This document shows, piece by piece, positions 30,625 through 50,476 of a stretch of 64,000 nucleotides of DNA. The position numbers and the translations under genes were made by a program. The notes below the pieces were generated by a model. It had not been told where the DNA came from. It did not search any database and saw only the letters and a program-made list of their open reading frames with translations. The stretch is from contig NZ_NFLT01000006.1 of NCBI RefSeq assembly GCF_002161055.1, forward strand, positions 62,001 to 126,000, given 5' to 3'. The stretch is from Tyzzerella sp. An114. GTDB lineage: Bacteria; Bacillota; Clostridia; Lachnospirales; Anaerotignaceae. Each line of letters starts with the position of its first letter. Within the stretch, counting starts at the first letter, position 1.

Positions 30625-30647
30625 GTACTTGTAATTAAATAACGGAT

Positions 30648-30757
30648 AATCTTCAGGGCAGGGTGTAATTCCCGATTGGCGGTAAAGTCCGCGAGCATTT
30701 TTGCATGATTTGGTGCAATTCCAAAACCAACAGTTAAAGTCTGGATAGAAGAAGATA
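30648..30757 (+). ncRNA. FMN riboswitch (RFN element)
   Basis: The conserved elements of the RFN aptamer are all present in order: ATCTTCAGGGCAGGGTG, ATTCCCGA, TGGCGGTAAAG, GCGAGC, GATTTGGTGCAATTCC, CCAACAGT, AGTCTGGATA and GAAGAT, which closes the P1 stem with the first bases. Binding of FMN is expected to favour the downstream terminator and lower riboflavin synthesis. Confidence 0.96.
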
Positions 30758-30827
30758 GCAACTTTTTTGTATGTATAATTTTATTTTTTATTTATTTTAT
30801 ATACATTTATTTTTGTTAAAATTTTGC

Positions 30828-47163: not shown

Positions 47164-48510
47164 TTAGAATATAAATATATTTGAGAGATTAAAAAATATA
47201 AGAAGAGTAATAACATCAACAACAGTTGATATAAAAGGACCTGCCATAATAGCCGGGTCAATTTTTAATTTCTTTGCTATTATAGGCAATATACAGCCAA
47301 CAGTTTTTGCAACAACAACGACACAAACTATACTCAGTGAAACAGTAAAATTAATTAAAAAATTCTGATGACTGAATATCATAAGTCTTAAAAAGTTTAC
47401 ACTACCAAGACATAAACCACAGAGAACACCAACTCTCATTTCTTTCCATATTACTCTAAAAATATCTCTTGTTCTTATTTCGCCTAAAGCCATACCACGA
47501 ATTATAAGAGTAGAAGCCTGACTTCCTGCATTTCCGCCAGTATCCATAAGTAAAGGAACAAATGAGGCAAGTATAACAACAGAGGAAAGTATATCCTCAT
47601 ATTTTCCTATAATACTTCCTGTCAAAGTTCCAGAAACCATAAGTATTAAAAGCCAAAGTATTCTATTTTTAGAAAGTGTCCATACACTTGTTTTTAAATA
47701 CTCGTCTTCAGAAGGCACAAGACCGGACATTTTTTCAATATCCTCTGTACTCTCCTCATCAATAACATCAACAATGTCATCTATTGTTATAATTCCCACA
47801 AGAGCACCTTTCATATCTGTTACAGGCATAGCTATGAGATTATATTTTTTAAAAAGCTGTGCTACATACTCTCTATCATCATCAACATTAACACTTATAT
47901 AATCATCATTCATAAGATTTTTTATAATCTCATCACCTTTTGAAAATATAAGAGTTTTAAGATAAACAACACCTCTCAAATTTCTGTTATCATCAGTAAC
48001 ATAACAGCTATAAAGTGTTTTTTTGTCCTCACCTGTTACTTTTATTATTTTCATAGCTTCATCGACAGTATTTTTAATATTAAGCTCAACATACTCTACT
48101 GTCATAATACTTCCTGCTGAATTTTCAGGATAATTAAGAAGTCTGTTTATAATTTCTCGTCTTCCTGTGTCAGTATTTCTAAGAACCTTTGACACAAGTT
48201 CTGCTGGAGCATCTGATAAGAAATCAACAGCATCATCTATAAAAGCATTGTCTATAATATCTTTTAATTTTTCATCAGATATTTTTTCAACAATATCTTC
48301 TCTGATATCCTCGTCAATATATGTAAGAACTTCGGCACACTGTTCGCTATCCATAATATTAAAAACAAAAATTCTGTTTTCATCGGAAAGCTCCTCCAAA
48401 AATTCTGCAACATTAACAGCATTTGTATCAGCAATTTCTTTTACAAGAGTATCATAATCCTGTGACTGAAAAAGTCTAAAAAGTTCTTTGATAACAAGTA
48501 ATTTATCCAT
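47164..48510 (-). CDS. mgtE: Magnesium transporter MgtE (copy 1)
   Basis: 448 residues. N-terminal acidic helical domain (about 1-130), two CBS domains (about 131-250; 'MKGALVGIITIDDIVDVID'), a connecting helix and five membrane helices (about 285-448). The pore motif 'TGGNAGSQASTLIIRG' is present. The cytosolic domains close the channel when Mg2+ is high. The start at 48510 aligns with the second copy's start; the frame continues to 48561 but includes a hairpin arm and lacks an aligned N-terminus. It lies downstream of copy 2 with its own leader ORF and hairpin between. Confidence 0.93.
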   Translation of the reverse strand: MDKLLVIKELFRLFQSQDYDTLVKEIADTNAVNVAEFLEELSDENRIFVFNIMDSEQCAEVLTYIDEDIREDIVEKISDEKLKDIIDNAFIDDAVDFLSDAPAELVSKVLRNTDTGRREIINRLLNYPENSAGSIMTVEYVELNIKNTVDEAMKIIKVTGEDKKTLYSCYVTDDNRNLRGVVYLKTLIFSKGDEIIKNLMNDDYISVNVDDDREYVAQLFKKYNLIAMPVTDMKGALVGIITIDDIVDVIDEESTEDIEKMSGLVPSEDEYLKTSVWTLSKNRILWLLILMVSGTLTGSIIGKYEDILSSVVILASFVPLLMDTGGNAGSQASTLIIRGMALGEIRTRDIFRVIWKEMRVGVLCGLCLGSVNFLRLMIFSHQNFLINFTVSLSIVCVVVVAKTVGCILPIIAKKLKIDPAIMAGPFISTVVDVITLLIFFNLSNIFIF

Positions 48511-48532
48511 ATATGCCACCATATCTCTTTCC

Positions 48533-48597
48533 CACAGCATTAAAAAGCCTGTGGAAAACAAATATATAAATGTTTATAGAAGGCTTTTTTTGCTGTG
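48533..48597 (-). promoter_or_regulatory. Long hairpin between leader ORF 1 and mgtE copy 1
   Basis: Outer arms CACAGCA/TGCTGTG and inner arms AAAAAGCCT/AGGCTTTTT pair, with further pairing (AAACA/TGTTT) in the loop. The stop codon of the leader ORF (48574) lies within the loop region, and the hairpin ends 22 bp before the mgtE start. The T run is inside the stem, so it could act as an attenuator or as a translation-controlling hairpin. Confidence 0.55.
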
Positions 48598-48657
48598 TAC
48601 AATATTAAATTTTAACGTCAAAAAATAAATATAACTGCACCCATCACAGCCATCCAT
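48574..48657 (-). CDS. 27-residue leader peptide ORF of mgtE copy 1
   Basis: ATG at 48657 is preceded by GTGAGGTGA at correct spacing. The peptide begins 'MDGCDGCSYIYFL' and ends 'KKSLL', with the stop codon inside the hairpin that precedes mgtE. It is too short for a normal gene. Its position, RBS and similarity in start (Met-Asp-Gly, then Gly/Cys/Ser) to the leader ORF of the other mgtE copy suggest a regulatory leader peptide. It lies 31 bp after the copy 2 stop codon, so readthrough from that gene could also drive it. Confidence 0.55.
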   Translation of the reverse strand: MDGCDGCSYIYFLTLKFNIVHSKKSLL

Positions 48658-48688: not shown

Positions 48689-50035
48689 TTAAACAAGAAT
48701 ACCTGCTATATTAAAGAATATAAGTAAAGCAACAGAATCAACTATTGTAGTAATAAGGGGACCTGCCATAATAGCTGGGTCAAATCCGCATTTTTTAGCA
48801 AATATAGGCAAAGTACAACCTATTGATTTGGCAACCACAACAACACAAAGCATACTTACTGAAACTGTAATATTTACAAAGAATTGTTCTGGATGCATAA
48901 CAGTAAGTCTTATAAAGTTAACAATAGAAAGTATTGCACCACTTATTATACCTACACGGAACTCTTTCCATATTACTTTCAAAATATCTTTCATCTCAAT
49001 TTCGCCAAGGGCCATACCACGAATTATAAGGGTAGAAGCCTGACTTCCTGCATTTCCTCCAGTACCCATAAGTAAAGGAACAAATGTTGAAAGAGCAATA
49101 ACTTTAGCAAGAAGGTCATCATATAATCCCATAATAGCTCCAGAAATTGTACCAGAAATCATAAGAACCAAAAGCCAAGGTATACGATTTTTTGCCAGTT
49201 CAAAAACGCTTGTTTTAAGATATTCATCATCAGAAGGCAAAAGAGCGGACATTTTCTCAATATCCTCTGTATTTTCCTGTTCGATAACGTCCACAATATC
49301 GTCTACTGTAATAATTCCAACAAGTCTATTTTCCTTATCAACAACAGGCATAGCTATAAGATTATATTTCTTAAAAAGATGTGATATATACTCCTGGTCA
49401 TCAAGAGTTCCAACAGTAATAATATCATCATTCATAAGCTCTTTAACTATTGTGTCATCATCAGCTAAAATAAGTCTTCTAAGAGGCAAAACCCCTTGAA
49501 GTTTTCTTGAGCTATCTACAACATAACAAGTATAAATTGTTTCCTTGTCAACACCTGTTTTTCTAAGCTGTTCCATAGCCCTTGCAACAGTCATAAGCTC
49601 ATGAAACTGAACAAACTCAATAGTCATAATACTTCCTGCTGAGTTTTCAGGATAGTTAAGAAATTTATTTATAAGCTCTCTTTTGTTTTCATCTGTATTT
49701 CTAAGAACTTTTGTAACAAGATTTGCAGGAGCTTCACTTAAAAAGTCAACAGTATCATCCATGCAAAGCTCATCAACAATATTTCTAACCTCATTATCAG
49801 TGATAGATTTCACAATATGCTCCTGTGTGTCAGAGTCCATATATGAAAATACATCAGCTGCATTATCTTTTGTTAAGAGACGGAAAATAAAAAGCTGTTT
49901 ATCAGCAGGAAGCTCCTCAAAAAACTCTGCAAGGTTTGCAGCATTTTCATCATTAAGCTCCCTTTTAAGTTCAATATAATTTCCAGACTCCATAAGTTTT
50001 ATATATTCATCAAATACTACTTCCATTTCTTCCAC
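48689..50035 (-). CDS. mgtE: Magnesium transporter MgtE (copy 2)
   Basis: 448 residues, same architecture as copy 1: helical N-domain (about 1-130), tandem CBS ('ENRLVGIITVDDIVDVIE'), connecting helix, five membrane helices with 'TGGNAGSQASTLIIRG'. The two copies are clearly related along their whole length, so they arose by duplication. GTG start at 50035 behind GGAGGTGG. It is preceded by a 290-base leader holding a 40-residue ORF and an intrinsic terminator. Confidence 0.95.
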   Translation of the reverse strand: MEEMEVVFDEYIKLMESGNYIELKRELNDENAANLAEFFEELPADKQLFIFRLLTKDNAADVFSYMDSDTQEHIVKSITDNEVRNIVDELCMDDTVDFLSEAPANLVTKVLRNTDENKRELINKFLNYPENSAGSIMTIEFVQFHELMTVARAMEQLRKTGVDKETIYTCYVVDSSRKLQGVLPLRRLILADDDTIVKELMNDDIITVGTLDDQEYISHLFKKYNLIAMPVVDKENRLVGIITVDDIVDVIEQENTEDIEKMSALLPSDDEYLKTSVFELAKNRIPWLLVLMISGTISGAIMGLYDDLLAKVIALSTFVPLLMGTGGNAGSQASTLIIRGMALGEIEMKDILKVIWKEFRVGIISGAILSIVNFIRLTVMHPEQFFVNITVSVSMLCVVVVAKSIGCTLPIFAKKCGFDPAIMAGPLITTIVDSVALLIFFNIAGILV

Positions 50036-50094
50036 TTATGCCACCTCCGTTTATAGTTTATATTTTCTATCAACAGAGCACATAATATTAGTCA

Positions 50095-50127
50095 AACAAA
50101 AAAACATTTCAAAAATATTGAAATGTT
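50095..50127 (-). terminator. Terminator in the leader of mgtE copy 2
   Basis: Perfect 10-bp stem AACATTTCAA/TTGAAATGTT with a 5-base loop, followed by a T run. It is inside the transcript, 60 bp upstream of the mgtE GTG and after the leader ORF, so full-length mRNA needs antitermination. No gene other than the short leader ORF ends here. Confidence 0.85.
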
Positions 50128-50187
50128 GTGGCGAAATGATTTTCATTTAGACATAAAAAGAAAAAAATCGTACTGGTTAAAGACAGG

Positions 50188-50310
50188 TCAAAAAAGGGCA
50201 TACTGATAAAGGCGACCGTCCATGTACGCAGCTTCGCCGAAATTCAAACAATATATTATGTACTCACACAACGGTATACCATCACCGCAACTACTTCCAC
50301 TGCCGTCCAT
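50188..50310 (-). CDS. 40-residue leader peptide ORF of mgtE copy 2
   Basis: ATG at 50310 with GGAGGTGA 6 bp before it, a stronger RBS than most genes here. The peptide begins 'MDGSGSSCGDGIPLCEY' and ends 'RLYQYALF'. The stop codon is followed by a region that can pair with the ORF: CGTACATGG (50228-50220) with CCAGTACG (50176-50169), the latter followed by seven T; GGCGA/TCGCC also pair within the ORF. Such overlap of coding sequence and alternative hairpins is typical of peptide-controlled attenuators. No homologous family is known to me. Confidence 0.6.
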   Translation of the reverse strand: MDGSGSSCGDGIPLCEYIIYCLNFGEAAYMDGRLYQYALF

Positions 50311-50367
50311 GACTGTTCACCTCCGAATAAATTACTTTCAAAAAAGTATATAAACATACTTATTATT

Positions 50368-50396
50368 AGTATATTATCTATTAAAATTTACGTCAA
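50368..50396 (-). promoter_or_regulatory. Promoter of the mgtE copy 2 leader
   Basis: TTGACG (50396-50391), 17 bp, TATACT (50373-50368). Transcription would start near 50361, giving a leader of about 325 bases before mgtE. Confidence 0.7.
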
Positions 50397-50476
50397 CATT
50401 ATTATACACCAAAAATTTTTAAAATTAGGTTAAAAAAGCGTTTAATTTATATAAAATAAATTTAAGAAAAATTTTA

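Follow-up and report, generated by a model that had tools for sequence, protein, structure and literature searches.

The closest described systems are two leader ORFs of enterobacteria. MgtL precedes mgtA in Escherichia coli and Salmonella (PMC11282234; Chadani et al. 2017 cited therein); when Mg2+ is low, ribosomes drop off at its EPDP motif, and the RNA changes its conformation (PMC11282234). MgtQ is an 8-codon ORF located between mgtC and mgtB of Salmonella, with Asp at position 2 and Glu at position 5, and the RNA forms either the pairings 1:2 and 3:4 or the pairing 2:3, with segment 1 lying in the ORF (PMC8092293). Ribosomes of B. subtilis are known to stall at Asp-Pro and polyacidic stretches (PMC11381351). 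Two further elements share single features with the locus described here. Like it, the Thioalkalivibrio mgtE motif is a candidate regulatory element upstream of mgtE, but it is a structured RNA whose stem includes the mgtE Shine-Dalgarno (SD) sequence and start codon, and it belongs to a single genus (PMC11109978). The uORF2/Rv1805A behind the pe20 M-box of Mycobacterium tuberculosis likewise has a conserved N-terminus with an invariant proline; however, it is restricted to mycobacteria, its role is unknown, and it is not known to engage in an attenuator self-pairing (PMC12810186). No earlier description of an mgtE leader of the type reported below was found in the open-access literature.

The leader analyzed here precedes a tandem pair of mgtE genes in a 64-kb stretch of DNA, referred to as the window. 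A first-pass annotation of this DNA had regarded it as an attenuator of a kind not recognised, which has to be revised, as it does resemble the leader ORFs MgtL and MgtQ. With MgtL it shares a short leader ORF in front of a Mg2+ importer gene (here for MgtE, not MgtA), acidic and proline residues early in the peptide, and an RNA conformation that would be set by ribosome progress. The phylum and the transporter differ, however, and the Rho-dependent terminator of MgtL contrasts with a predicted intrinsic terminator. The uORF is longer than MgtL and its own distal half represents the putative antiterminator, and a response to low Mg2+ is only inferred here. Furthermore, the window peptide MDGSGSSCGDGIPL does not possess an EPDP-type N-terminal motif, only a looser acidic and proline content: the acidic and proline residues of its N-terminal block are just Asp2, Asp10 and Pro13, which is weaker than the EPDP of MgtL. 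As this motif is missing and as both the transporter and the terminator type differ, the leader is not classed as an MgtL. The likeness to MgtQ lies in the predicted exclusion of 1:2 plus 3:4 by 2:3 at the level of the family, with segment 1 within the ORF, and in the Asp at position 2. In contrast, MgtQ is intergenic and frees the ribosome-binding site of mgtB, and thus acts on translation, whereas the clostridial leaders would mostly act on transcription termination; their uORFs are also far longer and occur in other organisms.

The best reading, drawn by analogy, is that the leader works like MgtL and MgtQ; how the signal is sensed, that it is Mg2+, and in which direction it acts on mgtE are inferred from these systems, as is the destabilisation of the ribosome. 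We think that a ribosome-operated leader-ORF attenuator of this type, which would raise mgtE expression when Mg2+ is low, is a reasonably probable explanation, which rests on sequence and analogy, without data on expression, ribosome profiling or Mg2+ dependence.

The leader region of the tandem mgtE pair

The leader of the first mgtE extends over positions 50368-50036 of the minus strand and comprises a promoter, the leader ORF (uORF 1) with its strong SD sequence CGGAGGTGAAC, alternative hairpins and an intrinsic terminator about 68 nt upstream of the gene (Table 1). The promoter, the 40-residue ORF with its very strong ribosome-binding site and a separate perfect terminator had been proposed in the first-pass annotation, and all three were borne out. 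A hairpin built on CGTAC and followed by seven T, which had been proposed as well, is indeed present in the window, but its exact form is not retained in the sister species, and it is not the key pairing. This role falls to the complementarity of the uORF SD and start codon with the distal uORF, which would exchange with a GGCGAA/TTCGCC pairing.

Table 1. Features of the two mgtE leaders and their positions in the window
Feature	Position	Strand	Remarks
Promoter TTGACG-17-TATACT	50368..50396	-	TTGACG 50396-50391, 17 nt, TATACT 50373-50368
Leader ORF (uORF 1), 40 codons, peptide MDGSGSSCGDGIPLCEYIIYCLNFGEAAYMDGRLYQYALF	50188..50310	-	Match to model R1, E 3.7e-16; homologous uORFs in relatives
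N-terminal block (proposed sensor), codons 1-14, M[DE]..G/S-rich..[IV]PL	50269..50310	-	In relatives, differences pile up at codon position 3, unlike in the distal codons
Segment 1: uORF SD, start codon and first codons	50293..50326	-	Complementarity to segment 2
Segment 2: distal uORF	50207..50244	-	Predicted to pair with segment 1, or via GGCGAA (50238-50233) with TTCGCC
Segment 3 in the window's genus: TTCGCC	50130..50135	-	Partner of GGCGAA; 3/3 genus members
Hairpin CGTACaTGG/CCAGTACG, then T7	50161..50228	-	Arms 50228-50220 / 50176-50169; inside a multibranch domain closed by GGCGAA/TTCGCC
Intrinsic terminator, 10-bp perfect stem AACATTTCAA/TTGAAATGTT and T-tract	50097..50127	-	Stem 50127-50103; -8.5 kcal/mol
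First mgtE copy of the tandem pair, with GTG start	48689..50035	-	NCBIfam TIGR00400, 481.5 bits, cut-off 232.75
uORF 2, MDGCDGCSYIYFLTLKFNIVHSKKSLL, before mgtE copy 2	48574..48657	-	Kept in sister species L002 as MEGCDGCSSINILKTGYCISVPKSLF
Terminator-like hairpin CACAGCAAAAAAAGCC..GGCTTTTTAATGCTGTG, between uORF 2 and mgtE copy 2	48531..48597	-	Ends approximate
mgtE copy 2	47164..48510	-	

The window, antisense strands and shuffled sequences served as controls. Just two ORFs in the 64-kb window combine a strong SD, an ATG start, Asp or Glu as second residue and a length of 15-60 codons, and one of them lies before each mgtE copy; shuffled intergenic DNA contained none that met this combination. 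In total folding energy the leader does not stand out (z -0.74); its signal is to be found in specific complementarities and in conservation. The uORF peptide matched no NCBIfam family, and the peptide of a relative gave one subthreshold Pfam match (E 0.1).

The second mgtE copy possesses its own leader ORF (MDGCDGCSYIYF..) and a terminator-like hairpin (window 48657-48510, minus strand), and this arrangement is conserved in the sister species L002. The tandem mgtE pair carries two putative attenuators.

No Rfam family matched the leader at gathering score, and nothing relevant appeared down to E 10. A covariance search for the M-box (RF00380, gathering score 44 bits) had been set beforehand as a test that could refute the proposal of an attenuator without M-box; it found no match in the window, in the leader (to E 10) or in the entire genome, with positive controls from B. 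subtilis and L. lactis, so that the proposal was not refuted. The M-box (ykoK leader) resembles the present element in being a terminator-based leader of mgtE in Firmicutes, and in many Clostridia it stands in series with the same type of uORF; it differs in that the sensor proposed here is a translated ORF and not an aptamer. The window's genome also lacks a CorA and an MgtA-type ATPase above the cut-off. As a separate observation, an FMN riboswitch is found at 30645-30760 of the plus strand (107 bits).

Conservation of the uORF in the Anaerotignaceae

Among named genomes, Candidatus Fimicola merdigallinarum (L032) is the closest, with an MgtE that is 92% identical. The mgtE leaders of the family contain uORFs of 25-58 codons, which are preceded by TTGACN-17/18-TATACT in 36 of 38 cases and by a variant in one more. 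In a listing that had not been filtered on residue 2, each of the 19 family leaders for which the sequence extends far enough contains a uORF with Asp or Glu at this position. A sequence-only model, R1, which covers the SD and 17 codons of the family uORF, gave a single strong match per genome in most of the 58 family genomes. Directly downstream of the best R1 loci lies mgtE in 29 of 30 cases, including genomes outside the model (G299, G300, G306), and the remaining locus sits at a contig end. A loss of the ORF or of the hairpins in close relatives, which would have spoken against the first-pass proposal, was looked for, but the ORF, the promoter and the alternative structures are retained both within the genus and in the wider family.

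The leaders with IPLEPE permit a separation of peptide and RNA conservation. In the conserved block, the differences at codon positions 1, 2 and 3 amount to 155, 15 and 379, with 304 synonymous and 157 nonsynonymous changes, and indels in the conserved coding part are in-frame. In the next 15 codons the corresponding numbers are 768, 863 and 791, with 135 synonymous and 1174 nonsynonymous changes. This pattern indicates that peptide selection is confined to the first half of the uORF (about 14 codons). The distal half, as far as can be judged from the sequence comparison, is selected as RNA and not as peptide. As the N-terminus is conserved as peptide and the distal half as RNA, the attenuator appears to be both peptide- and RNA-based, which supports the earlier suggestion of a peptide- or RNA-based attenuator without M-box, its Mg2+ response being inferred.

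These data bear on two other explanations. A metal-binding RNA aptamer distinct from the M-box, with an incidental ORF, could account for the alternative structures and the terminator, but the most conserved part is coding, as seen from the third-position changes and in-frame indels, a conserved aptamer core is not apparent and the Rfam search was negative; we therefore regard such a riboswitch as very improbable. It is equally hard to believe that the leader merely encodes a functional small protein without a role as cis-regulator. The conserved SD and N-terminus would fit a small protein, whereas its C-terminal half is not conserved as a peptide and holds the antiterminator sequence, and the strong R1 matches lie in cis to mgtE.

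Within the first 13 codons of the uORFs, serine is encoded by AGT in 63 of 77 cases, as compared to 17 of 65 in the rest (38 family leaders). Apart from a possible pairing with segment 2 or an avoidance of anti-SD sequence, this bias lacks an explanation. A tract of the form GCC(C/T)TTTTT follows the uORF stop codon in 11 of 38 leaders (e.g. L016, L040, L041, L044, L046, L048, L120, L121, L128). It resembles the NusG pause site TTNTTT (PMC12288461), and by analogy it may possibly time the ribosome against RNA polymerase.

Alternative pairings and the proposed switch

The complementarity between segments 1 and 2 exceeds that of 95% of shuffled sequences in 35 of 38 leaders (mean z -3.6), while the sequences themselves differ between lineages. 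For the leaders of the window's genus the shuffle p values are 0.13 for the window (L001), which is not significant alone, 0.02 for L002 and 0.000 for L003. Thirty family leaders have a terminator, which begins between roughly +92 and +244, and pairing 2:3, between the distal uORF and the 5' arm of the terminator, lies above shuffles in 16 of 30 (mean z -2.1); in Anaerotignum, for instance, GCCGTGT is matched by ACACGGC. When 14 leaders are aligned (A3), 85.5% of 1:2, 82.5% of 2:3 and 91.8% of 3:4 are paired, as compared to 20-56% when the segments are slid. Column 181 of this alignment (A or G) covaries with column 105 in 2:3 and also with column 223 in 3:4, which indicates that both alternatives are kept. 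A shuffle control of A3 backs 2:3 and 3:4; for 1:2 the excess over the shuffles is weak and is seen in the covariation score. The arrangement known from MgtQ, in which 1:2 and 3:4 exclude 2:3 and segment 1 lies in the ORF, is thus present at the family level. The coding signature of the uORF, the promoter, the terminators, the alternative pairings and the association with Mg2+ importers are all supported at the level of sequence analysis.

The effect of a ribosome was modelled by masking the RNA that it covers, either in the first part of the ORF or up to the stop codon. The median predicted terminator probability of 30 leaders is 0.87 for the naked RNA; it falls to 0.33 when the ribosome stands near the beginning of the ORF, and is 0.94 when it has reached the stop codon. 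Switching is predicted for 17 of these leaders, and the other 13 do not switch in this simple model.

For the window's genus, an antiterminator in which the uORF itself would pair with the terminator arm was considered and rejected, as this pairing is not above chance (L001 z -0.11, L002 z 0.28). L001, L002 and L003 all possess a GGCGAA in the distal uORF and a TTCGCC immediately upstream of the terminator. In all three species their pairing probability is predicted as 0.00-0.25 with segment 1 free, when segment 1 holds segment 2, and as 0.64-0.96 once segment 1 is masked. The alternative partner of TTCGCC in L003 is the mgtE SD (predicted probability about 0.9). For L001 and L002 the predicted terminator probability is 0.95-0.97 in every ribosome state. 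The exchange between 1:2 and 2:3 is supported as a prediction in this genus, whereas an effect on the terminator is not predicted for L001 and L002.

In the mechanism that we propose, segment 1 (uORF SD and start) would pair with segment 2 in the distal ORF, and segment 2 could alternatively pair with segment 3, which in most family members serves as the 5' arm of an intrinsic terminator that has segment 4 as its 3' arm. Without a ribosome, 1:2 and the terminator would form and mgtE would be off. Translation up to the stop codon would cover segment 2, again permitting the terminator to form and leaving mgtE off. If ribosomes instead paused on the conserved acidic/Gly/Ser/Pro N-terminus or fell off there, and others continued to load on segment 1, segment 2 would become free for 2:3 and mgtE would be switched on. 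The N-terminal peptide would render the ribosome unstable or slow at low Mg2+, as proposed in analogy to MgtL and MgtQ. In the window's genus, where 2:3 corresponds to GGCGAA:TTCGCC, the output could be the terminator, the mgtE SD, or both.

The held ribosome could in principle also reflect an arrest peptide, with stalling instead of dissociation at [IV]P when Mg2+ is low. The motif [IV]P[LP] does close the conserved block, and a ribosome that stops at this point is predicted to free segment 2 in many leaders. Arrest peptides tend to be longer, however, and to exert their effect through the C-terminus, and no arrest motif of a known type (such as RAPP) was seen in the uORF, so that we consider arrest improbable.

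Association with Mg2+ importers and the nature of the signal

Within the family, no more than 9 of the 58 genomes contain an M-box, and uORFs of this type are present in the leaders that lie behind it. In L212-L219 the M-box is followed by one or two such uORFs and then by genes for an MgtA-type Mg2+ ATPase, CorA or a distant MgtE. The MgtA-type ATPases (TIGR01524) have two uORFs, MDAGHPDNYN.. and MDAEGSSSTK.., CorA (PF01544) is preceded by MEGDSGASGN.. and the distant MgtE by MDNGQSSSYH... The gene behind the M-box and uORF of L212 (G123) is just a 44-codon frame start, and represents a broken gene or an assembly error. In other Clostridia, M-box/mgtE leaders also contain a uORF, e.g. MDSSPLP, MDSGPIP or MVDPGPLP, and likenesses closer to EPDP are found there, such as MEPHPEP and MDASPLPEEP. 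Outside the family, 38 of 95 mgtE leaders possess a uORF with Asp or Glu as second residue in sense direction, as compared to 1 of 95 in antisense. Since uORFs like these stand in front of CorA and of MgtA-type pumps, in most cases with an M-box upstream, the signal is probably Mg2+.

Two other types of uORF were observed upstream of mgtE. In L057, L058, L064, L071, L083 and L090 the stop codon of an MDSSPLP-type uORF touches the mgtE SD. In these leaders a hairpin that precedes the stop codon forms a three-segment alternative with the SD/start and the distal part of the ORF, probably of a translational kind, and the direction of control could differ here. A third type, MESGSSS.., lies 285-460 nt upstream of mgtE in L068, L080, L089 and L102.

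The same attenuator might respond to another signal, either the general translation state or a scarcity of charged tRNA, with the ribosome slowed at codons for Pro, Ser (AGT) or Gly in the way suggested for mgtP and its sensing of proline. A proline is conserved at about positions 7-14 and the N-terminal AGT bias described above would fit, but there is typically only one proline, residue 2 is acidic family-wide, and the downstream genes are not amino-acid genes but encode Mg2+ importers from three families, frequently with an M-box upstream. We consider such a signal unlikely, although it deserves to be kept in mind. A conventional amino-acid leader-peptide attenuator was rejected, as the downstream gene encodes a Mg2+ transporter and no single-residue run is common to the family.

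Mg2+ sensing through the ribosome is the reading that we prefer. Whether it extends to a widespread, undescribed clostridial class of leader peptides is in our view an evenly balanced question. In such a class the nascent N-terminus would destabilise the ribosome at low Mg2+ and control MgtE, MgtA and CorA, alone or in series with an M-box, and it would have evolved independently of the enterobacterial MgtL and MgtQ. If true, ribosome stability would be a general bacterial Mg2+ gauge beyond the enterobacterial mgtL and mgtQ, with a peptide sensor that is cleanly separate from the RNA actuator, and dozens of natural sequences would be available for learning which nascent peptides destabilise ribosomes. 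Transcripts that possess both an M-box and a uORF would then combine two Mg2+ sensors of different chemistry. For the organism studied here, the leader suggests how Mg2+ import could be controlled in a genome that has neither an M-box nor a CorA or MgtA-type ATPase above the cut-off.
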